Shown here one piece after another: positions 3 to 21,802 of a DNA stretch of 23,201 nt (positions within the stretch are counted from its first letter, which is position 1; each line of letters starts with the position of its first letter). The translations under genes were made by a program, and so were the position numbers. Below the pieces are notes generated by a model. The model was not told the DNA's origin and ran no database searches. It saw nothing but the letters and a program-made list of their open reading frames with translations. This stretch comes from a virus. Where the stretch lies: positions 1-23,201 of IMG/VR virus record IMGVR_UViG_3300034102_000611, one strand, 5' to 3'.

Positions 3-500
3 GTTGCTGCTGGTACTGCAAAAGTAGCACAAAGTAAAAGTTTGGCTGGTGGTGCTGCAGGACAAGCCCTTCTTAATATAGGTGAAGTTGTAAATCCTCA
101 TACACAAATGTTATTTAAATCTCCGTCGCTTCGTCAATTTCAATTTCAGTTTAAAATGTTTCCAAAAACTAAAGCTGAAGCTCAAGAGATAATTAAGATT
201 GTACAATTTTTCCGTGTAGCTGCATATCCAGCTCTTGGAAATGGTAACGGAACAGATTCAGTTAATATGTCTACTTTTAAATTTCCAGATGTATTCAAAG
301 TTACGTTCTTAACGGGAAGTAAACAAAATAAAAACATAATTAGAATGATGGATTCATATTTGACATCTGTTACCGTTAATTATAATCCAACTAGTCCAAC
401 ATTCTTCGAAGATGGAATGCCATCTGAAATAGATTTATCTTTGACTTTCCAAGAAAGCAAAGCACTCAACAGAGATCTTATCCTCTCAGGAGGTTATTAA
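3..500 (+). CDS. Baseplate tail-tube cap/junction protein (gp48/gp54-like), C-terminal part
   Basis: This is the 3' part of a gene whose start lies left of the window: the frame is open from base 3, and a TTG at 42 is only an internal codon. About 165 residues are visible. The segment NPHTQMLFKSPSLRQFQFQF, then a conserved Phe-rich region and an ending of the type VNYNPTSPTFFEDGMPSEI, match the C-terminal tube-like domain of the T4 gp48/gp54 family. Those proteins cap the baseplate hub and start polymerisation of the tail tube, so this protein should sit at the junction of baseplate and tube. It lies one base before the gp53 gene. I cannot separate gp48 from gp54 because the N-terminal part is missing; T4 gp48 and gp54 are 364 and 320 residues long. 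Confidence 0.8.
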   Translation, partial: VAAGTAKVAQSKSLAGGAAGQALLNIGEVVNPHTQMLFKSPSLRQFQFQFKMFPKTKAEAQEIIKIVQFFRVAAYPALGNGNGTDSVNMSTFKFPDVFKVTFLTGSKQNKNIIRMMDSYLTSVTVNYNPTSPTFFEDGMPSEIDLSLTFQESKALNRDLILSGGY

Positions 501-501
501 T

Positions 502-1230
502 ATGTCATATTTCTTTCAAGGTTTTCCAACGATGCAATACGATGTATTTGCAAATGGAAGACCAGTCGAAACTACTGATTTATTTAGATCTGTTAGACTT
601 AAAAACAATCTACGAGATGATATCTTGCTTTATGAAAGATACCGTATTCAAGATGGTGAAAGACCCGATCATGTATCATTAAAATTATATGGTACTACAG
701 ATTATTATTGGACTTTTTTCATGATTAATCCAGATATAGTCAATTCATTTGCTGATTGGCCATGTTCTAGAATTGAAATGGAAAATAAGATTAAACTTAA
801 ATATCAAGGTAATGTATTATTAACTGATGAAGATATCTCTAATAAATTTATTCGTGGAGAAACATTAAAAGGATCTATTTCTTTAGCGACTGCTAGTATC
901 ATACAAAAAGATACTGATAGAGGTGTAATACGCTTATCAACTACTGATCAAGTTGGCACATTTGTAGATGGAGAACTAATAAGAGGTTTAACGTCTAATG
1001 ACCAAATAGCTATTGACCGTCAAATACCATATAGTGTTAATCCAAATCATTTTGAAGATTCGACTAGATTTTGGGTAAGAAAAGATTATCCAGGAGCAAT
1101 ACCTATTCCAAATGATGAACATGAAAGAGAATGGAATGAATACAAAACAGATATTAAAGTTATTAGACCAGAATATATTACTCAAGTAGTAGATGAATTT
1201 TATAAAATAATTAATCCAGATCAACAATAA
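502..1230 (+). CDS. 53: Baseplate wedge subunit gp53
   Basis: The 242-residue product resembles the T4 gp53 wedge protein, which joins wedges to the central hub in the last step of baseplate assembly. The N-terminal third carries the family pattern: an F-P-x-x-x-Y-D start, then LFRSVRLKNNLRDDILLYER, then the aromatic block YGTTDYYWTFFMINPDIVNS around residues 63-82. It is longer than T4 gp53 (196 residues); the extra length is mostly after residue 95. The start ATG at 502 follows AGGAGG within the end of the preceding gene (488-493), a strong ribosome binding site that supports this start. Its stop overlaps the next start in a TAATG junction, so translation is probably coupled to the hub gene. 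Confidence 0.85.
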   Translation: MSYFFQGFPTMQYDVFANGRPVETTDLFRSVRLKNNLRDDILLYERYRIQDGERPDHVSLKLYGTTDYYWTFFMINPDIVNSFADWPCSRIEMENKIKLKYQGNVLLTDEDISNKFIRGETLKGSISLATASIIQKDTDRGVIRLSTTDQVGTFVDGELIRGLTSNDQIAIDRQIPYSVNPNHFEDSTRFWVRKDYPGAIPIPNDEHEREWNEYKTDIKVIRPEYITQVVDEFYKIINPDQQ

Positions 1231-2495
1231 TGTCACTAGGTAAATTTGACTATTCCGTTGAATCCGTTCAACTAACATCTTCCACTGGGCAAAAGCTCGA
1301 GATTAAAGATTTGGTGATATCAATTGATATCTATGAATCACTATTATCTCCATATATTAAAGTAGAATTGGGTATCACAGATGCTTCTAACTTACTTGAA
1401 ACAGTTCCAATATTGGGTCAAGAAAAAGTAGATTTAGTATTATTAGAAGGTAAAAACAAAATAAGGAAAACGTTTTATATTGGTTCTGTGGCAAACTATA
1501 TTCGCGCGAATAATCAAGCTTCAATGTATACGTTAAAGCTTATTACACCTGAACAATTAATGAATAGTTTGAAACTCGTCTCACAAGCATATACAGGTAA
1601 AATATCTGATGCACTACAAAGTGTTATGAAAGATTATCTAAATAAAACTATAGACGTTACAGAAGATACTGTTGGTAATTATAAACTAGTTGTTCCAAAT
1701 TGGAATCCGTATCAAGCCATAGATTGGTTAAGTCGAAAAGCTATGGATAAAAATCAAACACCATTTGCTTTTTATGAAACGTTTACAGGCGGTCATCGTT
1801 TACAATCTTACACAACTCTATTTAATCAAAAGACATACAATAAATTTGTGCACAAAGGTGGTACATCATCTAGTACAGACGCTGGACAATTAGCAGCATC
1901 GTATAATGTGGCCATTGAATACGACATTAGAGATTACTCAAACACATATAAGAACACTTTGCGCGGTGCATTTGGTTCTGCCATGCATACTATAGATATT
2001 AGTACAAGGTCTTATAAACTATTGAAATATGATTATCTAAAAGACTTTGATAAAAAAGCTCATTTAGATAAAATTCCATTTATTAATAAAGAATTTAAAG
2101 TACAAAATAAACCTCTTAATGAATATGATTCAGTTCACTATGTAGCTAATAAAAATTCAAAAGCTTGGGGTACAACTTCATATAATAATTATAATAATGA
2201 AGCAGAATTTACAAAATTGGAAGCAGACGCATATGTTTATCAACTTGGATTAACAACTCTAAATATGGTAATTCGTGGAAGAACAGATTTGTATCCTGGA
2301 AAAATAATTGAATTCGAAGTAGATCGTGATAGACCATCGATATATGGTGTTGCTAAAGATAGCAATGAATATATTTCTGGAAAATATTTGGTAATGCATA
2401 CACATCACAAAATGGTTGATGGTAAATACACAATCATTATGGATGTAGTAAGAGATTCTCTTGGTAAAAAGATTAAACAACGCGGTGGTAAATAA
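1230..2495 (+). CDS. 27: Baseplate hub subunit gp27-like
   Basis: The 421-residue protein begins SLGKFDYSVESVQLTSSTGQ and continues with a segment on ligand-like hub strands (SIDIYESLLSPYIKVELGI), the usual opening of marine T4-like gp27 hub proteins. T4 gp27 (391 residues) forms a trimeric ring between the tail tube and the gp5 spike. The C-terminal part (GRTDLYPGKIIEFEVDRDRP, then a GKYLVMHTHHKMVDGKYTI segment) resembles the second tube-like domain of gp27/gpD-type hubs. The gene starts on the last base of the gp53 stop and ends three bases before the gp5-like gene, so hub and spike are made together. Assignment rests on sequence pattern and gene order; the hub role is confident, and precise equivalence with T4 gp27 slightly less so. 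Confidence 0.82.
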   Translation: MSLGKFDYSVESVQLTSSTGQKLEIKDLVISIDIYESLLSPYIKVELGITDASNLLETVPILGQEKVDLVLLEGKNKIRKTFYIGSVANYIRANNQASMYTLKLITPEQLMNSLKLVSQAYTGKISDALQSVMKDYLNKTIDVTEDTVGNYKLVVPNWNPYQAIDWLSRKAMDKNQTPFAFYETFTGGHRLQSYTTLFNQKTYNKFVHKGGTSSSTDAGQLAASYNVAIEYDIRDYSNTYKNTLRGAFGSAMHTIDISTRSYKLLKYDYLKDFDKKAHLDKIPFINKEFKVQNKPLNEYDSVHYVANKNSKAWGTTSYNNYNNEAEFTKLEADAYVYQLGLTTLNMVIRGRTDLYPGKIIEFEVDRDRPSIYGVAKDSNEYISGKYLVMHTHHKMVDGKYTIIMDVVRDSLGKKIKQRGGK

Positions 2496-2498
2496 ATT

Positions 2499-3764
2499 AT
2501 GAAAAATTACATGAACTGGTTTACTGGTGTAGTGGAAGATCGCGATGATCCACAAGAATTGGGTCGTGTGCGTGTAAGAATATTTGGTTTACACACTGAC
2601 GATTTATCAAAGATCAGAACAAGCGATTTACCGTGGGCTCATACGCTGATGCCTACAACATCTGCATCTATTTCAGGATTGGGATTTTCTCCAACTGGTT
2701 TAGTAGAAGGTTCATGGGTCGTAGGGTTTTTTGCCGATGGTGAAAATTGTCAAGATCCTATAATTCTTGGTTCTATACATGGTTATCCAACTCAAAATGT
2801 AAATGACCGCACTGCGTTTAAAGATTTTAATGGTAATTATCCTCGTTGGTATGATGAAACTGATGTAAGCAAAGTAGCGAGAAATGAATGGAAAGATCAT
2901 GTGTCTTATTATTCTCGTTATGCTGAGCAGATTAAAGGGATAGAAAAAGCTACTAAACCGTATATTCCTACAGTTGTAAGTGACTCCCCAGAGGAATCTA
3001 GGAGCTCATGGGAAGAGCCAGAACCACGTCGTGGAGTTAGAGGAACATATCCATTCGTCCATACGTTTGAAAGTGAAACAGGCATCATCCGTGAGATAGA
3101 TGATTCTGAAAATAACTCGCGAATTGTTGAGCATCATCCTGCAGGTACATTCTACGAGATATTTCCAGACGGTGATAAAGTAACTAAAGTTTCTGGTGAA
3201 AATTATACGATTGTTGTTTATGATGACAATATCTTAATTCGTGGAACACAAAATATCACCATCGAAGGCGATCAACGAGTATTAGTAAAAGGTGATTATG
3301 TCATGGAAGTTATGGGAGACTATAATCTAAAAGTACATGGTAATCGCTATACTAAAATCTCTCAAAATGATGCAATTGAAACCGTTGGTAATTTTAACTT
3401 AAACGTAAAAGAAGATTTCTTAACTCGCGTTGGTAAAAATCAAATATTATTAATTGATGGAAATAAGACTGAAACAATAGGCGGAAGTTCTTCATTAATG
3501 GTAACAGGAAAAGTAGATAACGTATTCTTAGACACTATGAGTACATTCTCAAATGGTGCGCAATCAGTATCAACTAATTCAAGTCAACAGTTTTTGTCTA
3601 AAAATGGTTTAGAGTTTGGCTCTGAAGCAAATTGGAATCTTAAGTGTAATTCCAATATGACTATCACCACAGTTGGTACATTAGGTATTGATACTGGCGG
3701 TGCATTTACAATTAATAGCGGTGGCAATTTTAGTGTCGACGCTCCTAGAGTGGACTTAAACTAA
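2499..3764 (+). CDS. 5: gp5-like baseplate central spike, OB domain plus beta-helix, no lysozyme domain
   Basis: Residues about 5-100 form the gp5/VgrG-type OB domain: WFTGVVEDRDDPQELGRVRV at the start, a glycine-rich strand region, then GSWVVGFFADGENCQDPIIL and GSIHGY. Residues 100-180 are a polar linker. Residues 185-225 contain the typical E-x-E-x-G ... NNSRIVEHHPAGTFYEIFPDG strands, and about 240-345 is a repeated strand pattern with VxGDY-type units (GDQRVLVKGDYVMEVMGDYN) expected of the intertwined triple beta-helix needle. T4 gp5 (575 residues) has a lysozyme domain between OB domain and helix; here that space holds only about 80 residues with no lysozyme motif. The spike should pierce the outer membrane as a trimer, while wall digestion is probably supplied by the next gene. 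ATG 2499 is used; a second ATG at 2511 is possible. Confidence 0.85.
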   Translation: MKNYMNWFTGVVEDRDDPQELGRVRVRIFGLHTDDLSKIRTSDLPWAHTLMPTTSASISGLGFSPTGLVEGSWVVGFFADGENCQDPIILGSIHGYPTQNVNDRTAFKDFNGNYPRWYDETDVSKVARNEWKDHVSYYSRYAEQIKGIEKATKPYIPTVVSDSPEESRSSWEEPEPRRGVRGTYPFVHTFESETGIIREIDDSENNSRIVEHHPAGTFYEIFPDGDKVTKVSGENYTIVVYDDNILIRGTQNITIEGDQRVLVKGDYVMEVMGDYNLKVHGNRYTKISQNDAIETVGNFNLNVKEDFLTRVGKNQILLIDGNKTETIGGSSSLMVTGKVDNVFLDTMSTFSNGAQSVSTNSSQQFLSKNGLEFGSEANWNLKCNSNMTITTVGTLGIDTGGAFTINSGGNFSVDAPRVDLN

Positions 3765-3765
3765 T

Positions 3766-5166
3766 ATGTCAAATTCTCCATGTGGAATTAATGCAGCTTT
3801 AGATGAAGCAAAGGCTGGAATAGATGCTCTTAAAGAAAAAATTTCTGGTGGATTAGAATCCATAGGAGATTTAGATTCTATTGCTACTACCATTAAAAAT
3901 AAACTAAAAGAAGTAAATGTTCCTAAACTTGAAAGTATTAACTTAAAAGAACAATTAATTAATCTTCCAAATTTAAATGCTGCAGAATATTCTGCAAAGG
4001 TTGCAGAATTAAGAACCAAATTTGGTACAGCTGTTCCAGATTTAGATGCAATTATTGCAAAAATCCCGAAACCAGTTGGATTAAATGCTCAAGGTAATAA
4101 AGATATTTTTACCCAGCTTAATGATGCATTAGGCAATGTTGGTGCTGTATTCCAAAATGCTCAAGAAAAACTTAGTTCACTTTCTATAGAATCATTGACA
4201 GCAAATATATGTGATGAGAAAAAAATTGATCCTATCACTAAGAAAGAAGTTCCTGTAGTACCTAACGTTGAAGTTACACAAAAAACTATTCCAGATCCAG
4301 TTACAAAAGAACCTATTCCAGTAGTGATAGATCCTGTGACTACTAAAGAAGTTCCAATAACTAAAGTAACTCCTCCTCCGCCTGGAGTTCCTGCAGTAAC
4401 ACCTACTCCAGTTTATGAGCCTACTCCTCAAGTAAAACCAACTCCTCCAGTAGTTCCTCAAAAAAATCCAGTCGTTGAACCTAAACCTTCAACTCCTCCA
4501 TCTGCTGGATTTACATTTACATTTACTAAAGAAAAATTAGTTGCTGCAGGTGGTGCAGCTGCAGGAAATTGGTATGAATATTTGAGAGATACTTTACCAA
4601 AATATAATATCACTACACCTGAGCGTGTTGCTGCATTTGTTGGAAATGTGGGTGTCGAGACAAGTTGGACACAAATTGAAGAAAGCGTAAAATATAGTGC
4701 AGATTTTATATTTAAAAATTTAAATCCTGGAAATAAACGATTCGCTACGCTCGATGATGCTAGAACTGCTGTATCAAAAGGCGCAGAATATGTTGCGAAT
4801 GTCATCTATATGGTTGAGCGCAAGTTATTAGATCCACAGCCTGGTGATGGTTGGAAATATCGTGGTCGTGGTTTAAAACAATTGACATTTAAAGACAACT
4901 ATTTAAGAGCATCTAAAGCGTTTTTTGGCGATGACAGGTTAGTTAAAAATCCAGACTTAGTTGTCACAGATAAGAATATTGCTGTTGAGACCGGTGCTTG
5001 GTATTTTAAGACTAAAAATATTTCTGACTATGCTGATAAAAAAGCATGGGGTGAATGTGGTGCTTTAGTTAACGCAGGTAAACCAAATGCAGATCCAGCA
5101 AAAGTAATAGATTACCAAAAGAGAATTAAAGCTCAAGAAAAAGCATATAATGCATTTATTGCATAA
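3766..5166 (+). CDS. Putative virion-associated peptidoglycan hydrolase, GH19 family
   Basis: The 466-residue protein has three parts. Residues 1-155 are Ala/Lys/Glu-rich and probably helical, with no signal peptide. Residues 156-246 are a Pro/Val/Thr linker (VPITKVTPPPPGVPAVTPTP). Residues 247-466 are a GH19 (chitinase-like) domain as in phage endolysins: FVGNVGVETSW with the likely acid Glu298, EESVKYSADF with Glu305/306, and the hallmark GDGWKYRGRGLKQLT at 360-374. In this family the domain cuts the glycan strands of peptidoglycan. No holin is adjacent and the gene sits directly between gp5-like spike and gp25, so it is more likely a structural, tail-borne lysin than the lysis endolysin. 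The usual His before the first catalytic Glu (GHES in many relatives) is Val here. The N-terminal function is unknown. Confidence 0.85.
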   Translation: MSNSPCGINAALDEAKAGIDALKEKISGGLESIGDLDSIATTIKNKLKEVNVPKLESINLKEQLINLPNLNAAEYSAKVAELRTKFGTAVPDLDAIIAKIPKPVGLNAQGNKDIFTQLNDALGNVGAVFQNAQEKLSSLSIESLTANICDEKKIDPITKKEVPVVPNVEVTQKTIPDPVTKEPIPVVIDPVTTKEVPITKVTPPPPGVPAVTPTPVYEPTPQVKPTPPVVPQKNPVVEPKPSTPPSAGFTFTFTKEKLVAAGGAAAGNWYEYLRDTLPKYNITTPERVAAFVGNVGVETSWTQIEESVKYSADFIFKNLNPGNKRFATLDDARTAVSKGAEYVANVIYMVERKLLDPQPGDGWKYRGRGLKQLTFKDNYLRASKAFFGDDRLVKNPDLVVTDKNIAVETGAWYFKTKNISDYADKKAWGECGALVNAGKPNADPAKVIDYQKRIKAQEKAYNAFIA

Positions 5167-5177
5167 TAAATAGAACC

Positions 5178-5645
5178 ATGCGATCACAAAACTTATCAGA
5201 CTTACCCATAGGCAATCGTCCAGCCAATTCTCAACCAATGCGAGAATTGACATTTGGCGGTAGAGAATCTACGTATGCAGATTTAGACTTATTATTTAGG
5301 CCTAACCCTGTGACTGGAGATATTAATCCAATTCGCGATGTAGATGCCGTTAAAAAGTCTGTACAAAATTTAGTATTAACTAATTTCCAAGAAAGACCAT
5401 TTCAACCTGAAATTGGATCTGGAGTTAGAGGTTTATTATTTGAACCAGCAGATGATATTACAATTCACGGTATAGAAGAAGCTGTGCGTAGAGTTCTTGC
5501 CAACTTTGAACCTAGAGCTCGCATACTTGAAGTTGATTCTGCATTTGATGAAGGACTAAATTCGTATAGACTAACATTAGAATTTCAAGTAATAACTACT
5601 GGACAAGTAGCAACAACAACTATTGTATTAGAGAGAACAAGATAA
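5178..5645 (+). CDS. 25: Baseplate wedge subunit gp25
   Basis: The 155-residue protein fits the gp25/GpW family (T4 gp25 has 132 residues), the part of the wedge core that contacts the sheath and is conserved in contractile machines including type VI secretion. The family features are in order: YADLDLLFRPNPVTGDI, a helix with VKKSVQNLVLTNFQERPF, then GSGVRGLLFEP, and the EPR motif at residues 111-113 (ANFEPRARI). The first 25 residues are a short extension relative to T4. The gene lies 11 bases after the GH19 gene and one base before gp6. ATG 5178 is chosen because it gives the complete N-terminus; ATG 5238 is an alternative that would remove 20 residues. Confidence 0.92.
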   Translation: MRSQNLSDLPIGNRPANSQPMRELTFGGRESTYADLDLLFRPNPVTGDINPIRDVDAVKKSVQNLVLTNFQERPFQPEIGSGVRGLLFEPADDITIHGIEEAVRRVLANFEPRARILEVDSAFDEGLNSYRLTLEFQVITTGQVATTTIVLERTR

Positions 5646-5646: not shown

Positions 5647-7521
5647 ATGCCTATTAATGTAACCGAATTAGATTTCTTTCAAATAAAAGAAAATTTAAAA
5701 GATCATTTAAAAGGTCTTCAAGCTGGAGGTAAATTTACCGACTATGATTTTGAAGGATCTGGCATGTCTGTGCTCATAGATCTTTTAGCATACAATACAC
5801 ACTATAATGCATTGAACGCGAATATGGCTGTGAATGAGGTATTCTTAGATTCTGCAGATCGTAGACAAAATATTGTATCTCATGCTAAATTATTAGGTTA
5901 TATTCCTCGTTCAAAAACTTCTTCATTTGCTACTATCAATATCACAGTGAATAGTCCAACGGGTTCTCCTTCTAGATTAACTCTTGATAGAGGCACAGAA
6001 TTTACAACGACGATCAATGATAAGCAATATGTATTCACAGTTCTTGAAACACAAACAATATCTCCAATTGCAGGAGTGTACACATTTGAAAATGTTAAAA
6101 TAAATCAAGGTGTTTTAAAGTCTACATTCTATGTTGTGGATTCTTTTGATGATTATCAATATTACGAAATTTTAGATTTAAATTGCGATAGAGAAACAAT
6201 TAGCGTTAAAGTTAAAGAAAATATTTCAGCTACTTTATCTGATGTTTACACACTGGCAAAAGATTTTACAAAGGTAAATGCAACATCAAAAGCATATTAT
6301 ATACAAGAAGCGGTATCAGAAAGATTTGAAATTTATTTTGGCGATGGCATAACATCTAAAAAATTAAATCCCGGAAATGTAGTGCAAATTGAATGGTTAT
6401 CTACTGCAGCAGAAGAAGGTAATGGAGCAACAATATTTTCTTTAAACGGAAATATTCAAGGTAACACAAATGTTACTGTATCAACTGTGTCAAAATCCGA
6501 TTCCGGCGCTGATCGTGAATCAAACAATTCTATTAAATTTAATGCGCCATTAACATATATTGCGCAAAATAGAGTAGTTACTCCAGATGATTACCGTGCA
6601 GCTATCTTAGAAAATTATTCTAATATTGAATCTATTGCAGTTTGGGGTGGAGAGCAAAACGATCCTCCTCAATATGGTAAAGCTTATATCTCTATTAAAC
6701 CAAGAGATGGAGAAACATTAGATGAAGTTGAAAAACAAAAGATTAAAGACCAAATCTTAAAGCCTCGCAATATCGTTTCTATTAGCCCTGAGATTATTGA
6801 TCCAGAATACACATATCTTAAATTAGAAGTATATTACAAATATAATCCTGCGCTTACATCTAAAACTGCAGGAGAATTGAAACAACTTGTGACGGATACT
6901 ATTGCAAATTATAATTCTGCAGATTTACAACAATTTGATGGTGTATTTAGAAATTCTAAGTTAACAAGATTAATTGATGCGTGTGATCCATCTATTTTAA
7001 ATAGTACAATTAGAGTGTATATGATAAAACGTTTAATCCCCATATTGAATACACCAAGACTTTATAGCATACAATTTTCTTCTCCGTTGTATTTTACACG
7101 TTCAAATGATAAAGTTGTTACTTCGACTTCATTCACATACAATGGAGTAACATCTTATATACAAGATAGACCACAAACACTAGGTAGTTCTGAACCTCAT
7201 TCTGATAAAGGCGGAACACATACATTAGAAATATATAAACTATTAAATAATAATAAAATTACTACAGTATCAGATATAGGTTATATCATTGCAGATCAAG
7301 GATTAGTAGTATTAGAAAAATTTACTCCATCTGCTATAAGCGGTGATTATATTACTATTACTGGAATTCCAAATTCTAACGATATTGCTCCTAAAAGAAA
7401 TCAATTAATAAAGATTAATATGGATGATGTTACGGTAACTGGTGAAGTTGATACTATTGCTACAGGTGGTACACCTGCAGGTGTAAGTTATACAACAACT
7501 CCTCGTCATAAAGAAGATTAA
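5647..7521 (+). CDS. 6: Baseplate wedge subunit gp6
   Basis: At 624 residues this is close to T4 gp6 (660). The N-terminus shows the baseplate J/gp6 pattern: DYDFEGSGMSVLIDLLAYNT, NANMAVNEVFLDSADRRQNI, then AKLLGYIPRSKTSS around residues 80-95. The middle contains FEIYFGDGITSKKLNPGNVV, and residues about 310-350 carry NRVVTPDDYRAAILENYSNI followed by GKAYISIKP, the segment before the dimerisation region. gp6 forms the ring that joins the wedges and changes shape when the sheath contracts. The gene starts one base after gp25 and stops three bases before the gp7-like gene. The last 120 residues are less conserved in appearance and Thr/Ser-rich. Confidence 0.9.
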   Translation: MPINVTELDFFQIKENLKDHLKGLQAGGKFTDYDFEGSGMSVLIDLLAYNTHYNALNANMAVNEVFLDSADRRQNIVSHAKLLGYIPRSKTSSFATINITVNSPTGSPSRLTLDRGTEFTTTINDKQYVFTVLETQTISPIAGVYTFENVKINQGVLKSTFYVVDSFDDYQYYEILDLNCDRETISVKVKENISATLSDVYTLAKDFTKVNATSKAYYIQEAVSERFEIYFGDGITSKKLNPGNVVQIEWLSTAAEEGNGATIFSLNGNIQGNTNVTVSTVSKSDSGADRESNNSIKFNAPLTYIAQNRVVTPDDYRAAILENYSNIESIAVWGGEQNDPPQYGKAYISIKPRDGETLDEVEKQKIKDQILKPRNIVSISPEIIDPEYTYLKLEVYYKYNPALTSKTAGELKQLVTDTIANYNSADLQQFDGVFRNSKLTRLIDACDPSILNSTIRVYMIKRLIPILNTPRLYSIQFSSPLYFTRSNDKVVTSTSFTYNGVTSYIQDRPQTLGSSEPHSDKGGTHTLEIYKLLNNNKITTVSDIGYIIADQGLVVLEKFTPSAISGDYITITGIPNSNDIAPKRNQLIKINMDDVTVTGEVDTIATGGTPAGVSYTTTPRHKED

Positions 7522-8676: not shown

Positions 8677-10143
8677 ATGTCTGCTATTATTACTACTAAA
8701 TTTCGTTATCAAAATGCTAATACCTTACTTCAAGGTTTAGCGGGAGAACTTGATGATGTTTATTATCTTGGCATAGGACGTTCATTTGCTTGGCCTTCTG
8801 ATTCCTCTCCTCCAACTCCAACAGACGTTCAATCAGTCGAGTTTGATGCTCAGAGAAACTTATTAGCGCTTAAAAAGATAGCGCTTACAAACGTATCTCG
8901 TGCAATCCCTCGCTATAATTGGATTTCTGGTTCAACTTATTCAGAATATGATGATCAAGATAGTGCTTTAAGCACAAAACAATATTATGTAGTTACTGAT
9001 GAATTGAACGTTTATAAGTGTATCAAAGCTGGTATTTCAGGCTCATCTATTAAACCTGCTGGAACACCTACTTCTATTGGATCAGTATTAGCAGATGGTT
9101 ATCAATGGAAATACATGTATACGTTATCAGGTTCTGACGTTGCTAAGTTTAATACTTCTTCGTTCATCGCTGTGAAAAAATTAGAGTCAGATGATGAATC
9201 AGTTCAATGGGACGTTCAAGAAAGCGCGCTTCCTGGTGCTATTCATAGAATAAAAATAATTAGTGGTGGCAGTGGTTATACATCTAAACCTACGGTAACA
9301 ATTACTGGTGATGGTATCGGCGCTTCTGTAATTGCAGCAGACGTTACACTTACTGGTGGTGTTGTTACAGAAATCATAATGAATTCAGCAAGAATTGGTA
9401 GTGGATATTCAACAGCAACTGTAAGTTTTAGCGGTGGAACTCCTGTTACTCCAGCAACAGCAAGAGCGATTATCTCTCCAAAAGGCGGTCATGGTTCAAA
9501 TCCTATTGAAGAACTAGGTGGCTTCTATGTTATTATCGACGTGAACCTAGTTGCAGATGAAGGTTCAGGAGATTTCTTAGTTGATAATGATTATAGACAA
9601 ATTATGTTAGTAGCAAATCCGCACGAAGTTGATGCAACAGCTGTACGTTTACTTGGTAAATGGACAGCAACTACAGCGTATATTGTTGGAGATGTCGTTT
9701 ATTATAATAATTATGCATACGTATGTGATACTCCTCATACTTCAGTTTCAACATTTGAGCCAGATATTGCTAAATGGACAGGACCAAGTGTAGCTTCTGC
9801 AGCAACATTAAATGGTCTTACTACAATTACATACACTGGATTATCTGGTACTCTTGCAGCAGATCAACAAGTTATAGGTCAAACAAGCGGTGCAATCGGT
9901 TATGTAGATAGCGTAGATACCGGAGATACTGTAATAAAATTCCATCAAAATTCTACTACTGGATTTGGTAGTTTCCAAGAAGGTGAATCTATTACTATAG
10001 GCGCCGCTACAGCAACTATCGATTCAATAAGTGCACCAGAATATGTGCCAATGTCCGGGAAATTAGTATATCTTGAAAATTTATCACCTGTAAATAGAAA
10101 CATAAATCAAACAGAAGATATCAAGTTAGTATTAGAACTATAA
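8677..10143 (+). CDS. 8: Baseplate wedge subunit gp8 with inserted modules
   Basis: Key blocks of T4 gp8 (334 residues) are present in order: an N-terminal IITTKFRYQNANTLL, YYLGIGRSFAWP, the Pro-Arg-x-x-Trp site in RAIPRYNWISG, YVVTDELNVYKC, DGYQWKYMYTL, then DNDYRQIMLVANPHEVDAT, and the end SGKLVYLENLSPVNRNINQT before EDIKLVLEL. gp8 is a dimer in the baseplate wedge, bound to gp7 and gp10. The protein has 488 residues. The extra length is a GGSGYTSKP...GSGYSTATVSF beta module at about 193-270, a segment at about 326-367 resembling a CBM5/12-type carbohydrate-binding module (KWTATTAYIVGDVVYYNNYA with a later Trp), and a small beta domain at about 375-460. These could face outward and touch the cell surface. 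It is preceded by the likely late promoter at 8638. Confidence 0.9.
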   Translation: MSAIITTKFRYQNANTLLQGLAGELDDVYYLGIGRSFAWPSDSSPPTPTDVQSVEFDAQRNLLALKKIALTNVSRAIPRYNWISGSTYSEYDDQDSALSTKQYYVVTDELNVYKCIKAGISGSSIKPAGTPTSIGSVLADGYQWKYMYTLSGSDVAKFNTSSFIAVKKLESDDESVQWDVQESALPGAIHRIKIISGGSGYTSKPTVTITGDGIGASVIAADVTLTGGVVTEIIMNSARIGSGYSTATVSFSGGTPVTPATARAIISPKGGHGSNPIEELGGFYVIIDVNLVADEGSGDFLVDNDYRQIMLVANPHEVDATAVRLLGKWTATTAYIVGDVVYYNNYAYVCDTPHTSVSTFEPDIAKWTGPSVASAATLNGLTTITYTGLSGTLAADQQVIGQTSGAIGYVDSVDTGDTVIKFHQNSTTGFGSFQEGESITIGAATATIDSISAPEYVPMSGKLVYLENLSPVNRNINQTEDIKLVLEL

Positions 10144-10165: not shown

Positions 10166-13100
10166 ATGTCATTAAAGATCTTTTCTCAAGCACCATACTA
10201 TGATGATTATGACGAGGCAAAAAGATACCTTCGCGTATTATTTAGACCTGCTGTTTCTTTACAAGTAAGAGAGTTAAATCAACTTCAAACATACTTACAA
10301 ACTCAAGTCGAGCGAGTAGGTTTACATTTGTTTAAAGAAGGTTCCATGGTCATTCCAGGTCAATCTTCTGTTGATACAAATATAACTTATATAAAGATTG
10401 AGAATGAAACTAATGGCATAGACATTAATACTATTGCCGATGAATTAGTTGGTTCTACGATAACCGGCCAAACTTCAGGAGTTACAGCCAAAGTTACAGC
10501 TGTAACTCCTGAAGAACCTAATGAAGATAATCCAATATTAACAGATGCTATAACTCTATTTGTTAGATATACATCATCAGGCGATGATAATGAAACAAAA
10601 ACATTCGTTGCTGGAGAATTATTAGTTGCAGACGCAGCTACTACTACGGAATTAGTAGAAAGAACAGTACAAATTAAGTCGGGGGCTGGCGTTCTCGGTA
10701 AAGGTACTGTTGCAGCTATTCAAAAAGGTATTTATTTTATAAAAGGGCAATTTGCTCTTGTTACAGATCAAACTCTGGTAATTTCTAAATATAGTAATAC
10801 ACCTAGTTATAGAATCGGTTTAGATGTTGACGAAAATATCGTCGACTCTAACGACGATAATACTTTAGCAGATAATGCTAATGGAGTTCCAAACCAAAAT
10901 GCTCCTGGTGCACATCGATATCAAATAATTTTAACGCTAACTAAGCTAGCTCCAGATTCTGTACTTGATGACACATTCATTGAGCTTATTAGAATTACTG
11001 ATGGTATATTACAATCTAGAGTTACAGAAACTGATTATTCAATCTTAGCAAAAACTTTAGCTAGACGTACGTATGACGAATCTGGTCATTACACTGTTTC
11101 ACCCTTTAAAGTTGCAGTTCGTGAACATCGTAATAACGATAGAGGAGTATGGACCGGACCGAATACAGCATATCAACTTGGAGATATAGTTATATCTGGC
11201 GGAAATTACTTTGTAGCTCTTAAAGGTGGTTTATCTGGAGCTGTTGAACCATCAACATTATTTGATGCAACTAATCCATATCAAAATTTAAATGATGGTA
11301 TTATTGATTGGAATTATACTACTAATCCTGCATTTAATAGAGGTTATCTAACTCCAGAAAAAGGCGGCGACGAAACTGCTGTAGCGATTGCGATTGAGCC
11401 TGGAAAAGCATATGTTCAAGGTTATGAGATTGAAAAAATTGCAACTGAATACATAAAAGTATCTAAAGCAAGAACATTTGATCGTATATCAAATGACGCT
11501 ATACCCGTATCATATGGTAATTACATTTACGTTTCAAACGTTTTAGGATTGCCAGATTGTTCAACATTCCCTCAAGTTGATTTGTACAATCGATTGACTC
11601 CAAGTTCTAATCCTCAAACAGCTGGTTCTGGTACTAAAGTTGGTACAGCTAGACTTCGTGGATGGGAATTCCATTCAGGTACGCCTGGAACATCAACTGG
11701 TGTTTATAAAGCATACATCTTTGATGTTAAGATGGAAAGCGGATACACGTTTGATCGTGATGTAAAACAAATATTCTATGATAGCGGTACAACTAAAACT
11801 AATATCGCAGCCGATGTTTTTGGCAAATACACTACACTTTCTGGTTTTATATCTGCTTCAACTACTACAATCACAGGTTCTTCTGGAACTGCATTCACTA
11901 CGCAACTCAAAGTTGGTGATTACATTAGAACAATTAATTCGGCTGCAGCATATGAATTCCGTAGAGTTACTGCAATTACAGACAGCGATACACTTACCAT
12001 AGATTCAGCATTTAGCGGTACTGTATCTGGTGCAGTTTATTCTAGAGTTGTTACTGAAATCAACGAACCCGGTGGTTTACCGCTATTATTCCCACTTGCA
12101 TATTCATTTATTAGAAATACACGTGGTGGTACTGGAGACAGTGAACAAGCAACTACATATACTACAACACAACGCTTTGATGCATCAACTGGTGCAGGTC
12201 AAACGTCATTAACGTTTTCAGTAGGTTCTGCAACTAGTCCTACTACTAGTGGCACAGAATTTAATCCAGCTGCAACTTCTACTGATTATATTTTAGTTAA
12301 TAGGACAGATGGTACTATTGAATCACCAAGCGGTATAACACTTCAAAATAATGGTGTAGATGTATTAATCAGCGGGTTAACAGCTAGTAAAGCATATAGC
12401 TTATTAGCTCCGGTTCGTAAAGCTGGTTCTCCAGCACAAGAAAAGAAAAAGACTCTAGTTGATAATGCAACAGCAGATTTTACAACACTAGCATCTGTAA
12501 CACCGTTAACTTTATCATTAGGTAAAGCTGATGGTTATAAAATAGTTACTATAAGGATGGCTGAAGATTTCACAGCTGCATCATCTAATCCAGCGACCAC
12601 GACTGACATCACGTCTTGGTTTACTTTTGATAATGGGCAACGTGATACTCATTATGATGTAGCTACTATAACACGTAAAGATGGTTATCCAGTTCCAAGT
12701 GGAGCTGTTCGCGTCATATTCGATTATTTTGATCATAGTATTGGTACAGCTGGCGATTATTTCACAGTTAATTCATATAGCGGTGAAGTTCCCTATAATA
12801 AAATCCCTTATTATATTTCTTCAACAGGCGTAGTAGCTTTGTCTGATGTCATGGACTTCCGTCCTCGTATTGGAGATGCTGGTGCTTTATTTTCTGGAAC
12901 TGGTGCTTCGCAAACTGAAATTCCTAAAATTGGTTTCGAAACTTCTGCAAGCTACTCATACTACTTACCCCGCTCAGACAAATTAGCATTAAATATAGAT
13001 GGCTCATTCTTCTCAGTTGATGGAGTTGCAAGTTTATCACCTGAAGAACCAAAAGATCCAAACTTAGGTATGTTGATTGCTAAGTTGCACATATCCGCTT

Positions 13101-16100
13101 TCACATTATTCCCATCTCAAGGTTCTATTCAAATAGAAACGATTGATACTAAACGATATACTATGCGTGATATCGGTAAACTTGATAAGCGTATTGAAAA
13201 TCTTGAATACTATACAGCTCTATCATTATTAGAGCAAGAAACTAAATCATTAACTATTCAAGATGAATTAGGTCTTGATCGTTTCAAAAATGGATTTATC
13301 GTTGATAGCTTTAAAGGCTCTGATCTTGGAGATACAGCTTCTATAGATTATCGCTGTTCTATTGATATGTCATTGCAAGAACTAAGACCATTCTATACAA
13401 TGGATAATATAAATTTATTAGAAGTAAATCAATCTGATGCGGCACGTGATACTGATGGATATGCATTAACTGGCGATATTATCACATTACCATATACAGA
13501 GAGAGAATTAATAAGACAGCAGTTTGCATCTCGCACAGAGAATGTAAACCCATTTGCTATCTTTACTTTCTTAGGAAGTATGTCATTAAATCCTCCTTCA
13601 GACGAATGGTTTGAAGTTGATCGTAGACCAGATATTGTAAACAACATCGAAGGTAACTTTACCGCAGTACAGACTGCTCTTGAAGCAACCGGTGCATTAG
13701 GTACAGTTTGGGGTGCATGGGAAACCAATTGGGTTGGTCAAACACGAAACATAGATCGTTTAGTCGTAACACGAGGATTCGATAGTCGTGATTATGGACT
13801 TGGAGCCGCTCGTTGGTCAGATCGTCGCACATTTACTCAAGCTGAACTACAAGCTATTGGCGGAGATGCAACATCATTTGGTAATGATGCAGCCGGTGCA
13901 CGCGTTTTAACATTCCAAACTCAAGCGACAACAGTTGGTCAATCTCGCACAGGTATTCAAACATCTGTTACACCAAAAATTGATTATCAAGTTCTTGAAG
14001 ATAGAGTATTACAATCCGCACTAATACCATATATTAGATCTAGAGATCTATTGTTTGTTTGTAAAGGCTTGAAGCCAAATACGAAATTATTCCCGTTCTT
14101 TGATGATACAGACATCTCTTTATTCGTAACTCCTGCAACTAAAGTGAATTTAACTATAAGTGCTGGAACTACAGATCAGTTTAATACTGAAACCAACGTT
14201 GGTGGTGCAGCAGAAGAATTTGCTAGACAAGTAGATGGTAAAGCAGAGGTTTCATACAACAAGGGCGACGTTGTTTTCGTTAAACAGCGCGGGGTTAATA
14301 CATACAACACTCAAGCAGTTTCTCCAGGAACAGGTATAGCTGTATTAGTTGAAAAAAGTACTGGAGACCCACAAACCGAAGCCGTTTATTTGATGAACAT
14401 TAAAGGTTCTTTCCAAGATGGTGACATCATAAGAGGTTCTATTTCTGGAACAGAATATGAAATTGATGGAAGCGTAGTAGTAGCTACAGCGGGCGATGAT
14501 ATTATAACAAACTTTAATGGTTCTACTGCTGGCATATTTAAGATTCCAAATACTGATTCAATTCGTTTTAGAACTGGCATTAGAGAATTTAAGCTATCTG
14601 ATAGTAATACAGGATCTTTAGATTTCACTACCCAAGGTCGCGGTCAATATCGCGCACAAGGTATATTAGAGACTAAACAAAAAACTATTAATGCAGTTAG
14701 AAACGCAGAAATATCGACTCAACAAGTTTCTGATTCTCAAATTACTGAAGTTTATTCAGATGAACGTTTAACTCGTGATAGCGGATGGTATGATCCATTA
14801 GCACAAACATTCTTAGTACAATCTACTGGTGGTTCTTTTATTACCAGCGTTGATATATTCTTTGCAACAAAAGATGTTGGCATTCCAGTAACTATGCAAA
14901 TTCGCGAAGTCGTAAATGGTTATCCTGGTCAACGTGTATTGCCATTCTCAAGAGTTACAATGACACCAGATAAAATTAACATTGATCCAAATATCGGTTC
15001 TCAACCTACAACATTTAGATTTGAATCTCCTGTCTACTTACAAGACCTTACAGAATACTGTATTGTGTTATTGTCTGATTCAAATAATTATAGAGTTTGG
15101 ATTGCGCAACTTGGAGAAAAAGCTGTTAATTCAGATCGTTTCATATCTGAACAGCCTTATGCTGGTGTATTGTTTAAATCACAGAACGCCTCTACATGGA
15201 CAGCGAATCAAGAACAAGATTTGAAGTTTACAATTCGTTCCGCAGTATTTGATATTGCACAATATCCAGTAATTGAATTTAATAATGAACCGCTTCCTCC
15301 AATTATATTAGAAACTGATCCGTTTCAAACAAAAGCCGGAACAGATAAAGTGCGCGTATTTGCTAAAAACCATGCTATGCCAAATAATTCTTCAGTTATC
15401 ATTTCTAATGTGGCTGCAGGAACATATAACGGTATAGTTACAACATCAACTACTGGACTAAATGGAACATTCACTATTGTAGATAGTGAAGTAGATTCTT
15501 TCGTAATTGATCTTGCAAGTAATGCTACTAATAGCGGTTTTGTTGGTGGAGAAAATGTAATTGCCACTGTTAACATTGGATATGATGCAGTAAACTTTAT
15601 TGCTCAATCACAAGTATTTTCAGAAACTACATTAGCATTTGGTATGACGCCTATTAATGAGTCATATAGTGCAGCTTCCGCAGAAACTTCTTTAATTCCA
15701 AATGTTACTACTTACTTTGATAATAAGAATATTGTAGCTTCTCAGACTAATGAAAACTTATCTGCGCTTTCTGGCAATAAATCATTAGTTGTAACTGCAA
15801 GATTGACATCTGAAAATGAAAATTTATCTCCTGTTATCGATACTTCTAGAATGTCATTAACTACAATCTCCAATAAGATTGACACATACACGTATTCAAC
15901 TAAAAATAATGATGATCTAGATTATAAAACAGTATTAACGACAGCTGGAAACAATGTAGCGTATGCCGGAAATACTATTAGTATCACAAATACTGGCACT
16001 TTAAGAAGTGATGCTACGGGTATTGCAGTTGGCAAATATATTGATATAAGCGGTACAGGATCTGGAACTAATAATACCACAGATCCAATATTAGTGACAG

Positions 16101-16570
16101 CTGTTGCTTCAGATGGTGCTACAATTACTTGCGACCATACATTTACAACACAATCAGCTACCACCACTACTATTACTTTATTAGATAATTATGTTAGTGA
16201 GATTGCTCCAACGGGTGGTTCTTCTGAATCTAAATATGTTACACGAGTGGTTAACTTAGCAAATTCTTCAACTTTCTTGAAGATTATGTTTGGTGCTAAT
16301 ATTCCAGCAGTAACTGGTTCAGATATAGAAGTTTATTACAAACTATTACCTGCTGGTTCTACTACTGATATTACTAAATTCAATTTTGTAAAAGCTACTC
16401 CTATAGCTAATTTAGTTAAAACATCTAATCGCAATACGTTTACTGATGTTGCATATGAATTAGAAAACTTACCTGTGTTCGATGCAGTTGTAATTAAGAT
16501 TGTGTTTAAAACTGGTAATTCTGCTCAAGTACCTAGAGTTAAAGATTTAAGGGTGATTGCTTGTGCTTAA
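10166..16570 (+). CDS. Giant 2134-residue baseplate/tail structural protein (DUF4815-like N-terminus)
   Basis: The gene fills 6.4 kb. The N-terminus (YDEAKRYLRVLFRPAVSLQV, then RELNQLQTYLQTQVERVGLH) matches DUF4815-type proteins, large tail or fibre-like proteins of marine T4-like phages. Residues about 328-385 resemble a carbohydrate-binding module (VWTGPNTAYQLGDIVISGGN). Residues about 557-625 are a beta module (GTAFTTQLKVGDYIRTI...SDTLTIDSAF). Residues about 995-1050 are a conserved block (KRYTMRDIGKLDKRIENLEY). Residues from 1539 form another (SGWYDPLAQTFLVQSTGGSF, SVDIFFATKDVGIPV, YCIVLLSDSNNYRVWIA). The last 430 residues are Ser/Thr/Asn-rich. By position after gp8 and by size it is likely the peripheral wedge or short-fibre attachment protein, perhaps taking over the outer parts of T4 gp7 and gp10. 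No catalytic motif was seen. Start and stop are clear. Confidence 0.75.
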   Translation: MSLKIFSQAPYYDDYDEAKRYLRVLFRPAVSLQVRELNQLQTYLQTQVERVGLHLFKEGSMVIPGQSSVDTNITYIKIENETNGIDINTIADELVGSTITGQTSGVTAKVTAVTPEEPNEDNPILTDAITLFVRYTSSGDDNETKTFVAGELLVADAATTTELVERTVQIKSGAGVLGKGTVAAIQKGIYFIKGQFALVTDQTLVISKYSNTPSYRIGLDVDENIVDSNDDNTLADNANGVPNQNAPGAHRYQIILTLTKLAPDSVLDDTFIELIRITDGILQSRVTETDYSILAKTLARRTYDESGHYTVSPFKVAVREHRNNDRGVWTGPNTAYQLGDIVISGGNYFVALKGGLSGAVEPSTLFDATNPYQNLNDGIIDWNYTTNPAFNRGYLTPEKGGDETAVAIAIEPGKAYVQGYEIEKIATEYIKVSKARTFDRISNDAIPVSYGNYIYVSNVLGLPDCSTFPQVDLYNRLTPSSNPQTAGSGTKVGTARLRGWEFHSGTPGTSTGVYKAYIFDVKMESGYTFDRDVKQIFYDSGTTKTNIAADVFGKYTTLSGFISASTTTITGSSGTAFTTQLKVGDYIRTINSAAAYEFRRVTAITDSDTLTIDSAFSGTVSGAVYSRVVTEINEPGGLPLLFPLAYSFIRNTRGGTGDSEQATTYTTTQRFDASTGAGQTSLTFSVGSATSPTTSGTEFNPAATSTDYILVNRTDGTIESPSGITLQNNGVDVLISGLTASKAYSLLAPVRKAGSPAQEKKKTLVDNATADFTTLASVTPLTLSLGKADGYKIVTIRMAEDFTAASSNPATTTDITSWFTFDNGQRDTHYDVATITRKDGYPVPSGAVRVIFDYFDHSIGTAGDYFTVNSYSGEVPYNKIPYYISSTGVVALSDVMDFRPRIGDAGALFSGTGASQTEIPKIGFETSASYSYYLPRSDKLALNIDGSFFSVDGVASLSPEEPKDPNLGMLIAKLHISAFTLFPSQGSIQIETIDTKRYTMRDIGKLDKRIENLEYYTALSLLEQETKSLTIQDELGLDRFKNGFIVDSFKGSDLGDTASIDYRCSIDMSLQELRPFYTMDNINLLEVNQSDAARDTDGYALTGDIITLPYTERELIRQQFASRTENVNPFAIFTFLGSMSLNPPSDEWFEVDRRPDIVNNIEGNFTAVQTALEATGALGTVWGAWETNWVGQTRNIDRLVVTRGFDSRDYGLGAARWSDRRTFTQAELQAIGGDATSFGNDAAGARVLTFQTQATTVGQSRTGIQTSVTPKIDYQVLEDRVLQSALIPYIRSRDLLFVCKGLKPNTKLFPFFDDTDISLFVTPATKVNLTISAGTTDQFNTETNVGGAAEEFARQVDGKAEVSYNKGDVVFVKQRGVNTYNTQAVSPGTGIAVLVEKSTGDPQTEAVYLMNIKGSFQDGDIIRGSISGTEYEIDGSVVVATAGDDIITNFNGSTAGIFKIPNTDSIRFRTGIREFKLSDSNTGSLDFTTQGRGQYRAQGILETKQKTINAVRNAEISTQQVSDSQITEVYSDERLTRDSGWYDPLAQTFLVQSTGGSFITSVDIFFATKDVGIPVTMQIREVVNGYPGQRVLPFSRVTMTPDKINIDPNIGSQPTTFRFESPVYLQDLTEYCIVLLSDSNNYRVWIAQLGEKAVNSDRFISEQPYAGVLFKSQNASTWTANQEQDLKFTIRSAVFDIAQYPVIEFNNEPLPPIILETDPFQTKAGTDKVRVFAKNHAMPNNSSVIISNVAAGTYNGIVTTSTTGLNGTFTIVDSEVDSFVIDLASNATNSGFVGGENVIATVNIGYDAVNFIAQSQVFSETTLAFGMTPINESYSAASAETSLIPNVTTYFDNKNIVASQTNENLSALSGNKSLVVTARLTSENENLSPVIDTSRMSLTTISNKIDTYTYSTKNNDDLDYKTVLTTAGNNVAYAGNTISITNTGTLRSDATGIAVGKYIDISGTGSGTNNTTDPILVTAVASDGATITCDHTFTTQSATTTTITLLDNYVSEIAPTGGSSESKYVTRVVNLANSSTFLKIMFGANIPAVTGSDIEVYYKLLPAGSTTDITKFNFVKATPIANLVKTSNRNTFTDVAYELENLPVFDAVVIKIVFKTGNSAQVPRVKDLRVIACA

Positions 16571-17911: not shown

Positions 17912-18412
17912 ATGATAAAACTTGATGATGTTGTTGAATTTATTCACAACCCTTTAGCATACGAACAAAAACTAGTTTCATTAATAAACACTAAGGGGGA
18001 GCAAATCCTCCTTAGTTCTTTTAGCGAGCTATATAATGAAAACTCTACTATTAAAGTAGAAGGCATGGAAAAGTTTTGTGTTAACATATACAATAAGTGC
18101 CAATATCTATCTTTGAAATATGATCACAGTGGTCCAATAACGTGTCATGCGTTTATTGCAAAAGATGACGCACCGTCATTCCCACTACACACTGATCCTG
18201 ATGACGTTATAATCTTATGTGTTGAAGGTACTAAAAAGCTTCTCATTAAGAATGAATATATAATACTAGAAGCTGGTGATGATGTCTATATTCCCGCAAA
18301 TACGCCACATCAAGCTTTCAATGAAAAAGCTTCATTTACATTGAGTTTTGGTTTAGAAAAATTTCTTAAAGATAAAGCGAAGTTATATAATGAATTGGAT
18401 GTTCTACCTTAA
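17912..18412 (+). CDS. JmjC/cupin-type putative Fe(II)/2-oxoglutarate oxygenase
   Basis: The 166-residue protein has a single cupin fold pattern. H93-x-D95 occurs in SFPLHTDPDDVIILCVEGTK and the second metal histidine is His133 in AGDDVYIPANTPHQAF. The sequence HxD ... V-x-G-x-K-(K/R) ... GD-x-x-Y-(I/L)-P ... PH is that of JmjC-like cupins such as the ribosomal oxygenases (YcfD, MINA53, NO66), which hydroxylate Arg or His in proteins; Lys109 would be a candidate 2-oxoglutarate contact. It is shorter than those enzymes and lacks a recognisable extra domain. Its end overlaps the radical SAM gene by 23 bases, so the two are translated together, which suggests it acts in the same modification pathway. 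Other cupin roles, such as binding without catalysis, are possible. Confidence 0.7.
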   Translation: MIKLDDVVEFIHNPLAYEQKLVSLINTKGEQILLSSFSELYNENSTIKVEGMEKFCVNIYNKCQYLSLKYDHSGPITCHAFIAKDDAPSFPLHTDPDDVIILCVEGTKKLLIKNEYIILEAGDDVYIPANTPHQAFNEKASFTLSFGLEKFLKDKAKLYNELDVLP

Positions 18413-19448
18413 AACGACAGAGACATGTAATCTTAATTGTCGTCATTGCTTTACAAATGGAATAAATGGACCAAAGATATATTGGGACAAAGACAAAGTA
18501 AAAGATTGGGTCGACAGATTTATTCAAACAACAAATAAAGATGATACGATCCATTGTGAATTTCACGGCGGTGAACCATTTTTAGTTGATGTTGAAGAAA
18601 TGAAAGCAGTGCATAATTACTGCAATACTCTCCATCCTAATATGACTTGGGGAGCAACTACTAATTTAGTTTTTAAATTAAAAGAAGAGCATAAAGACTT
18701 TATTAAAAACGAATTAGGTAATCGCTTAGGAACTTCTTGGGATCCTAAGATTAGATTTGATAATGATAAGCAATTAAAGCTTTGGTTGGATAACCTTAAA
18801 GAGTTATTGGCTCAAGGTACAACTATCAGATTGTTTATCAGTGTCACTAAAGATACTATTGCAATAGAACCAATTTACTTGTTGACTTGGATTAAATCTC
18901 TAGGTGTTCAAGAAGTATCATTTGAAAGATTGACTGGGAATGGAAGTGCTTTAAAGCATCCTGATATATTCCCGTCAAATATAGAACAAGATGCATGGTT
19001 TTTAAAAATGCATGAGCAGTCTATATTATATGAGACTAGAGATTGGTTTGATAATGACTTCTTAGAAACGATTTACTCTAAGTTTGAAACTGGATTTACT
19101 AAGGGCGGCACATTTTGCAGAGATTGCGAAGAAAAGATCTTTACATTAAATGCAGATGGTTCTATTTCAGGTTGTCCTAATTCAGCACCTGAATTTCAGT
19201 TTGGGCATATAAATGACTCAGTCGAAGACCTTATAAATAGTCCTATAAGATTAGAAAATATGGCATGTGAAAAGAGCAGAAATGATTTTTGCTATTCATG
19301 TGAAGTATTTGAACATTGTGGAGGCGACTGTCATCAATTAGCTTGGCAAGATGACATTTGCGCAGCTCCAAAAAGCTTAATGAAATTATTATCAACACAA
19401 ACAAAGAAAGTTTGGATGATTAAGGAAGAATATGGCAACACTAGATAA
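18390..19448 (+). CDS. Radical SAM-SPASM peptide/protein-modifying enzyme (first)
   Basis: The 352-residue protein has the radical SAM cluster motif CNLNCRHC (Cys13, 17, 20), which binds the [4Fe-4S] cluster that cleaves S-adenosylmethionine, and GGEP at 60-63, which contacts SAM. The C-terminal part is a SPASM domain with auxiliary-cluster cysteines: Cys243, 246, 262 (GSISGC), 293, then 301, 304, 310, 314 and 324 in the spacing C-x2-C-x5-C-x3-C-x9-C. Such enzymes (anaerobic sulfatase-maturing enzymes, sactipeptide and related maturases) act on peptide or protein substrates. The end of this gene overlaps the start of the CHxS-tailed protein gene by 17 bases, so enzyme and candidate substrate are probably coupled. 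The SPASM domain argues against QueE, the common phage radical SAM enzyme. The start may be ATG 18390 or 18399. Confidence 0.9.
   Translation: MNWMFYLKTTETCNLNCRHCFTNGINGPKIYWDKDKVKDWVDRFIQTTNKDDTIHCEFHGGEPFLVDVEEMKAVHNYCNTLHPNMTWGATTNLVFKLKEEHKDFIKNELGNRLGTSWDPKIRFDNDKQLKLWLDNLKELLAQGTTIRLFISVTKDTIAIEPIYLLTWIKSLGVQEVSFERLTGNGSALKHPDIFPSNIEQDAWFLKMHEQSILYETRDWFDNDFLETIYSKFETGFTKGGTFCRDCEEKIFTLNADGSISGCPNSAPEFQFGHINDSVEDLINSPIRLENMACEKSRNDFCYSCEVFEHCGGDCHQLAWQDDICAAPKSLMKLLSTQTKKVWMIKEEYGNTR
19422..19428 (+). promoter_or_regulatory. Shine-Dalgarno of the CHxS-tailed protein gene
   Basis: AAGGAAG lies inside the end of the radical SAM gene, with its AGGA core five bases before the ATG at 19432. 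It is among the stronger ribosome binding sites in the window and fits a product needed in larger amount than the enzyme. Confidence 0.65.
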
Positions 19449-20004: not shown

Positions 20005-20006
20005 CA

Positions 20007-21801: not shown

Positions 21802-21802
21802 C

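Follow-up and report, generated by a model that had tools for sequence, protein, structure and literature searches.

The viral DNA of IMG/VR record IMGVR_UViG_3300034102_000611 (positions 1 to 23,201; this whole stretch of 23,201 bases is called the window) contains the baseplate gene cluster of a myovirus of the T4 superfamily. Its genes follow the order gp48, gp53, phrog_350 tail protein, gp5, GH19 gene, gp25, gp6 and further wedge-type genes. In this study, we focused on the gene of a gp5-like central spike protein of 421 amino acids (2499..3764) and on the next gene, which encodes a protein of 466 amino acids with a GH19 domain (3766..5166). Only one base separates the stop codon of the first from the start of the second, and these two genes, like the other baseplate genes and gene parts located in the window below, are on the plus strand. 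The classical example of a lysozyme carried on the tail is the spike of T4, in which the enzyme forms part of the needle. A preliminary description of the window suggested that here the wall-digesting domain had left the spike for a separate GH19 protein.

The gp5-like protein has the scaffold of T4 gp5 and an empty lysozyme slot. Pfam recognized Gp5_OB (E 2.1e-27) and Gp5_trimer_C (PF22178, E 9.8e-9) in it, and the Pfam scan of this protein found no lysozyme family. Alignment with T4 gp5 (PDB 2z6b) gave two blocks, residues 2-123 with T4 residues 5-131 and residues 163-365 with T4 residues 368-565, and no GH24 domain lies between the OB domain and the helix by alignment or by Pfam. The OB part (residues 1-123) and the trimerization/beta-helix part (residues 163-421) are encoded at 2499..2867 and 2985..3761, respectively. 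The 39 residues between them (residues 124-162, 2868..2984) stand where T4 gp5 has approximately 236 (132-367, lysozyme and maturation site). Measured between the matches of hidden Markov models (HMMs) for the two parts, the gap from OB to helix was 19 residues, compared with 213-265 in 50 GH24-bearing gp5 proteins. Thus the claim of a gp5-like protein with OB and helix but no lysozyme was borne out, while the linker of 80 residues named in the preliminary description was too long. According to the available part of PMC7650644, T4 gp5 is cleaved during maturation between lysozyme and helix, at Ser351-Ala352; for a cleavage site of this type, the window gp5 has no aligned counterpart of T4 segment 132-367. 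In the Methylophilales phage Melnitz-3 (L004:5962-9005) and in loci L100-L110, gp5 took another form, with OB and helix encoded as two proteins. The OB protein of Melnitz has a VanY match just below the Pfam cut-off, its helix protein has an endolysin-family C-terminus, and the split resembles the T4 gp5*/gp5C cleavage, written as two genes.

The 466-residue protein consists of a helical N-terminal domain (residues 1-154, 3766..4227, boundary approximate), a Pro-rich linker (residues 155-248, 4228..4509, boundaries approximate) and a GH19 catalytic domain (residues 249-466, 4510..5163). The first, which we call the carrier domain, was recognized in other loci with an HMM built from the window clade only, and its helices appear in models of low to moderate confidence. 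The linker varies in length and sequence in an alignment of 10 orthologues. The GH19 domain was recognized by Pfam (PF00182, E 5.5e-8), and its best sequence match in the PDB was the SPN1S endolysin 4ok7 (E 1.4e-15). AlphaFold2 modeled it with high confidence (mean predicted local distance difference test score, pLDDT, of 84-98 in 10-residue blocks, with one block at 63) and the rest of the protein with low to moderate confidence (mean pLDDT 75). Foldseek searches with this model led to phage GH19 endolysins (4ok7, E 1.6e-8), in agreement with a GH19 fold, and in the viral library the unnamed protein A0A2H4N7H2 (560 residues) matched nearly the full length with 42% identity. The available part of PMC8547705 gives the pair E49/E58 as proton donor and base of the endolysin subfamily of GH19. 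In our alignments these correspond to Glu298 (codon 4657..4659) and Glu306 (codon 4681..4683), respectively, which are nearly invariant over 25 rows, including that of L136, a protein without GH19; G367-R368-G369 and Q372 of the GRG..Q motif are conserved as well. At position 48 in the numbering of that subfamily, where the same part of the paper gives His for 93%, the window protein has Val. Therefore, the claim that a GH19 domain on a Pro-rich linker is encoded between the spike gene and the gp25 gene (5178..5645, PF04965, E 6.1e-12) proved right.

To describe the carrier domain by itself, we searched 11,490 open reading frames (ORFs), filters off, with an HMM of 21 N-termini, all from the window clade. 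At E<=0.01, 48 ORFs outside the clade matched, and all 48 lay in the slot behind gp5 and none elsewhere, with only 409 of the 10,217 non-clade ORFs located in this slot (which runs from the end of gp5 as far as gp25 or gp6; in the absence of both, 3 kb were taken). All of them belong to loci without a gp5 lysozyme. The 48 matches were not deduplicated, some being from near-identical contigs, and many of the distant ones are individually weak (E 1e-5 to 1e-2). Chance similarity of coiled coils was considered as their cause, and the 48 of 48 matches in one slot argue against it. The position is equally strict in a larger set, where 135 carrier matches in loci with complete intervals were all inside the interval and the other 21 were in loci without a scored complete interval. 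A typical carrier has a CG.N..L-type motif at its start and a C..VPN-type motif at its end, and matching ORFs can be as short as approximately 153-204 residues. Judged from sequence, the N-terminal domain constitutes a distinct family of carriers. No match was found by tblastn with four carrier queries against 50,697 phage records, so that no cultured representative came to light at that sensitivity, and 263 pattern matches in a bacterial genome collection included no confirmed relative.

Two known proteins were tried as the identity of the carrier and rejected. T4 gp5.1 occupies a similar position, next to gp5 on its downstream side in most of the T4-like loci observed, but belongs to a different family. 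It occurred in GH24 loci and in D479; no locus has both labels, and gp5.1 looks beta-rich by eye whereas the carrier is predicted to be helical. A PAAR tip protein is encoded separately in G001, the longest relative contig (167.6 kb); neither the window nor the records of five of six relatives, possibly fragments, gave a PAAR match. At L343:5474-6580, an extended PAAR-like protein of 368 residues with an unassigned C-terminal part is encoded beside a carrier gene. In PHROGs, the carrier-GH19 protein matches family 181 (E 2.8e-97) in two stretches, the better of which covers residues 1-199, and positions of approximately 545-644 of this profile also match gp5 genes of named phages. PHROG 181 therefore seems to mix architectures.

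The preliminary description predicted that a gp5 lysozyme and a GH19 neighbor would be anticorrelated among related phages. From 389 sequences (loci plus window), 221 had both gp5 HMM parts and, no more than 5 kb away and in the same orientation, gp25 or gp6, and these complete intervals held 168 distinct gp5 proteins, window included. The searches for related loci kept the best 80 of at least 593, at least 573 and 96 confirmed matches, which favors gp5 proteins like the queries. GH24 was present in the gp5 of 43 of the 168 loci, and none of these had a carrier or a recognized hydrolase in the interval. The slot was empty in 124 loci, 91 of which had a carrier; two loci without a carrier had an M15-like enzyme, and 31 had neither carrier nor recognized enzyme by these models. 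The remaining locus (Det7) had another gp5 insert, a CHAP domain. The 91 carriers bore GH19 (26 loci), a lytic-transglycosylase type (one), a T4-lysozyme type (one) or nothing recognized (63). Cargo was counted with four HMMs built for this study, one each for GH19, GH24, M15 and a lytic-transglycosylase-type domain, and Pfam was run on part of the carriers only, so that other cargo may be missed; in 16 carriers without recognized cargo (one of them, L343, being outside the counted intervals), Pfam found no wall hydrolase. With the order gp5-carrier-GH19 present in 26 of 168 distinct gp5 loci, the arrangement in the window is not due to chance. Fisher's test for carrier versus GH24 gave 2e-19, which does not amount to an evolutionary test, given the kinship of the named GH24 loci and the sampling in favor of gp5 proteins like the queries. 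In a previous count, made with different thresholds and a less narrow carrier HMM, carriers were present in 0 of 43 GH24 loci versus 72 of 99 empty-slot loci; L215, scored without a carrier in the main count, has one by the broader HMM. A GH10-family protein (L215:7514-9097, Pfam E 4.8e-49) lies between gp5 and the PAAR gene of that locus. Among the sequences not counted are the cyanophages S-RIM8, S-RIM44 and AG-345-P14, as well as Mosig, ACP17, NCTC12673 and Cronobacter phage S13, the split-gp5 phages (Melnitz, L100-L110), contigs ending inside the interval, and five loci (L219, L255, L256, L259, L266) that bear GH24 and have gp6 in the opposite orientation.

The expected anticorrelation was thus seen, with a GH19 neighbor in 0 of 43 GH24 loci versus 26 of 124 empty-slot loci, and the case that would have spoken against it, a gp5 with lysozyme that also has such a neighbor, did not occur in the 43. 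Gene order and Pfam also support a hydrolase of another family on a separate protein of the baseplate gene cluster. The wording that the domain had "moved" from gp5 was too strong: the slot is empty and a separate hydrolase is present, but GH24 and GH19 are different families, most carriers bear no recognized enzyme, and with a gp5 tree that is only midpoint-rooted a GH24 ancestor of this clade would be hypothetical. Compensation as a general rule found no support, since most of the 91 carrier loci have no recognized cargo and many empty-slot phages show no compensating enzyme at this site.

Carrier and cargo have separate evolutionary histories. In the window clade, the cargo is GH19, and the window-type carrier occurs in 27 distinct complete loci, 26 with GH19 and one (L136) with a lytic transglycosylase. 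The 15 carrier GH19 domains included form one group in the GH19 tree (support 100/97), which sits in a group of 19 rows with GH19 domains of G001 and of phage PhiW-14 (94/98). Compared with L133, the carrier N-terminus of L136 is 75% identical and the last 205 residues are 21% identical, and its cargo matches the lytic transglycosidase structure 9udh_A (E 5.7e-33). In L154, which belongs to a distant group, the cargo is a lysozyme of the T4 type (Pfam E 8.5e-7; T4 lysozyme in the PDB, E 1.1e-15). Among 12 proteins compared, the carrier N-terminus of L126 is closest to L096 (66%) and its GH19 domain to L097 (77%), and in the gp5 tree L126 groups with L096, L125 and L129. Loci L136, L154 and L126 thus suggest that anchor and cargo are distinct modules that meet at the linker.

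We believe, with a probability of roughly 60%, that the 466-residue protein is a tail-hub adaptor carrying a peptidoglycan hydrolase that acts at entry in place of the GH24 domain of gp5. Through its helical N-terminal domain, the protein would attach to the baseplate hub or to the spike next to gp5, and the Pro-rich linker would give the GH19 domain enough reach to contact the wall. On tail contraction, the lysozyme-less spike would cross the outer membrane, and the GH19 domain would open the peptidoglycan locally, which is the job of the gp5 GH24 domain in T4. Four of these steps are inferred, namely that the protein is in the virion, that it binds hub or spike, that it acts at entry and that its substrate is peptidoglycan. 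More broadly, there is an even chance that uncultivated aquatic T4 relatives possess a family of hub adaptors with exchangeable C-terminal cargo, namely GH19, lytic transglycosylase, T4-type lysozyme and perhaps non-enzymatic tips, by which the chemistry of wall-piercing would be detached from the spike and exchanged in the manner of an effector. In type VI secretion systems, too, adaptors carry effectors. In the open-licence literature (titles and abstract beginnings, among the matches listed), we found no description of a separate hub adaptor with an exchangeable hydrolase in T4 relatives.

The GH19 protein could instead be the lysis endolysin, lying among baseplate genes by chance, with an N-terminal domain that targets wall or membrane. 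PHROG 181 is labeled "endolysin" in the lysis category, many endolysins belong to GH19, and the closest experimental structures are those of endolysins. The protein has no transmembrane-type hydrophobic stretch (highest 19-residue hydropathy 0.75), and canonical holin-dependent endolysins likewise lack one. We consider this explanation unlikely, since the N-terminal domain is found only in the slot behind gp5 and often without a recognized enzyme, the gene order with gp5 and gp25 is kept, and G001 has three GH19 genes, the carrier gene and two free-standing ones near membrane-protein-like genes. One free gene (L302:18103-18732) is followed by lipoprotein-like and membrane-protein-like ORFs, and the other lies after three small membrane-protein-like ORFs and the PAAR gene, all of them together within L302:13729-15428; both neighborhoods were assessed by hydropathy and by eye. 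Models of GH24, M15_4, VanY, Amidase_2 and M23 found nothing in the records of six relatives, five of them 33-90 kb long. The carrier enzyme is therefore probably not the lysis enzyme; action only at lysis, which the preliminary description named as the outcome that would overturn it, is made less likely by the two free genes. The free genes of G001, together with the enzyme pairing in T4 and PhiW-14, favor action of the carrier copy at entry rather than lysis. According to the available parts of PMC3184105 and PMC7650644, the tail lysozyme of T4 is related to the enzyme that the phage uses for lysis. PhiW-14, a Delftia phage, has a separate GH19 endolysin in addition to GH19 in its gp5 region.

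Many carriers show no recognized cargo, which fits a different explanation: the carrier may serve the structure or the assembly of the hub, as a tip, plug or chaperone, and its C-terminal domains would be clade-specific add-ons, with GH19 trimming peptidoglycan in the window clade and the spike penetrating independently of it. The C-termini form many groups that share no detectable blastp similarity, and the shortest carrier ORFs mentioned above point the same way. We regard this as quite unlikely, because three unrelated wall-hydrolase families occur on one carrier and all 27 window-type loci bear either GH19 or, in L136, the lytic transglycosylase. We consider it very unlikely that the substrate of the enzyme is chitin or a capsule-like polysaccharide of the host instead of peptidoglycan. 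GH19 includes chitinases (available part of PMC8547705), and a chitin-binding type CBM5/12 module (approximately 9661-9762; PF02839, E 1.3e-7, residues 329-362) lies in the gp8-like wedge protein of the window (8677..10143; PF09215, E 1.6e-11). However, the GH19 domain fits endolysin structures (4ok7, 8p8e, 9eoi) better than plant chitinases, and the other enzymes on the carrier belong to peptidoglycan-cleaving families.

Several results limit the reading as a hub adaptor with an entry hydrolase or weigh against it. The six named GH24 loci are all Straboviridae, and the three present in the gp5 tree form one group; the anticorrelation may therefore reflect a handful of events. In the midpoint-rooted gp5 tree, L136 has no resolved position at the base of the clade, so that either cargo may have come first. 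With no cargo recognized by four HMMs in 63 of 91 carrier loci, the basic role of the carrier need not be enzymatic. The N-terminal part gave no credible Foldseek match in the PDB, and the carrier domain alone reached a mean pLDDT of 57 in AlphaFold2; its binding to hub or spike is for this reason a guess. Extra GH19 genes were seen in one of six relatives' records, the other five (33-90 kb, possibly fragments) having one each, and the label of PHROG 181 is a lysis annotation.

Compared with known systems, the window shares with T4 (Straboviridae) the OB and trimerization/beta-helix scaffold of gp5, a similar neighborhood and, at least by gene position, a wall hydrolase associated with the spike. 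In T4, GH24 lies inside gp5 between OB and helix, whereas in the window this slot is empty and GH19 is on a separate protein. Exchange of the gp5 enzyme has been described: the available part of PMC3184105 reports CHAP in gp5 of the CBA120/ViI type, Ackermannviridae. In Det7, which is of this type, CHAP (E 3.3e-10) is still inside gp5, with an OB-helix gap of 207. PhiW-14 resembles the window in having GH19 in the gp5 region; unlike the window, its GH19 is joined to the helix part of gp5 (L315:4139-5905), and the OB part is in another ORF. This unannotated ORF, located before the GH19-helix gene, appears CHAP-like by eye. The Pseudomonas phages Milchi and Astolliot likewise have an empty gp5 slot, and a different protein, encoded between their gp5 and gp25 genes, bears an M15-peptidase-like enzyme, but there the carrier is a PAAR spike-tip protein fused to the M15-like peptidase (L005:7937-8941 and L006:6937-7941, respectively). 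In Milchi, Peptidase_M15_3 scored E 1.6e-4, just below the Pfam cut-off, and the endolysin family phrog_894 scored E 1.8e-18.

These results indicate that the gp5 slot is empty in a large group of T4 relatives, most of which encode a separate protein that is fixed in its gene position and bears, among other cargo, unrelated wall hydrolases. The system offers a way to test which part directs the enzyme to its target and whether the choice of hydrolase follows the chemistry of the host wall. The results also bear on annotation, since the carrier family is called "endolysin" in PHROGs and lysozyme-less gp5 proteins are called "tail lysozyme" in records such as those of D479 and Milchi.

The whole window had no megablast match in the 50,697 phage records, and a scan for T4 late promoters gave two matches versus 4.8 expected. 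At its left edge, a gp48-like baseplate tail tube cap, probably incomplete, is encoded at 42..500 (PF11091, E 4.7e-7; phrog_230, E 3.3e-45, profile positions 428-586 of 628), followed by a gp53-like baseplate wedge subunit at 502..1230 (PF11246, E 4.4e-9; phrog_232, E 1.5e-34). The gene before gp5 (1230..2495) encodes the phrog_350 tail protein (E 8.4e-77; no Pfam match), and its position suggests a gp27-like product. Downstream of gp25, a gp6-like baseplate wedge subunit is encoded at 5647..7521 (PF21379, E 1.1e-17; phrog_219, E 4.4e-176). Beyond the gp8-like gene, 10166-16570 encodes a protein of 2134 residues with DUF4815 (E 1.7e-64), and 17912-22855 encodes a Cupin/JmjC-type protein and two radical-SAM-type proteins, one of them below the Pfam cut-off, with three unassigned ORFs in between.

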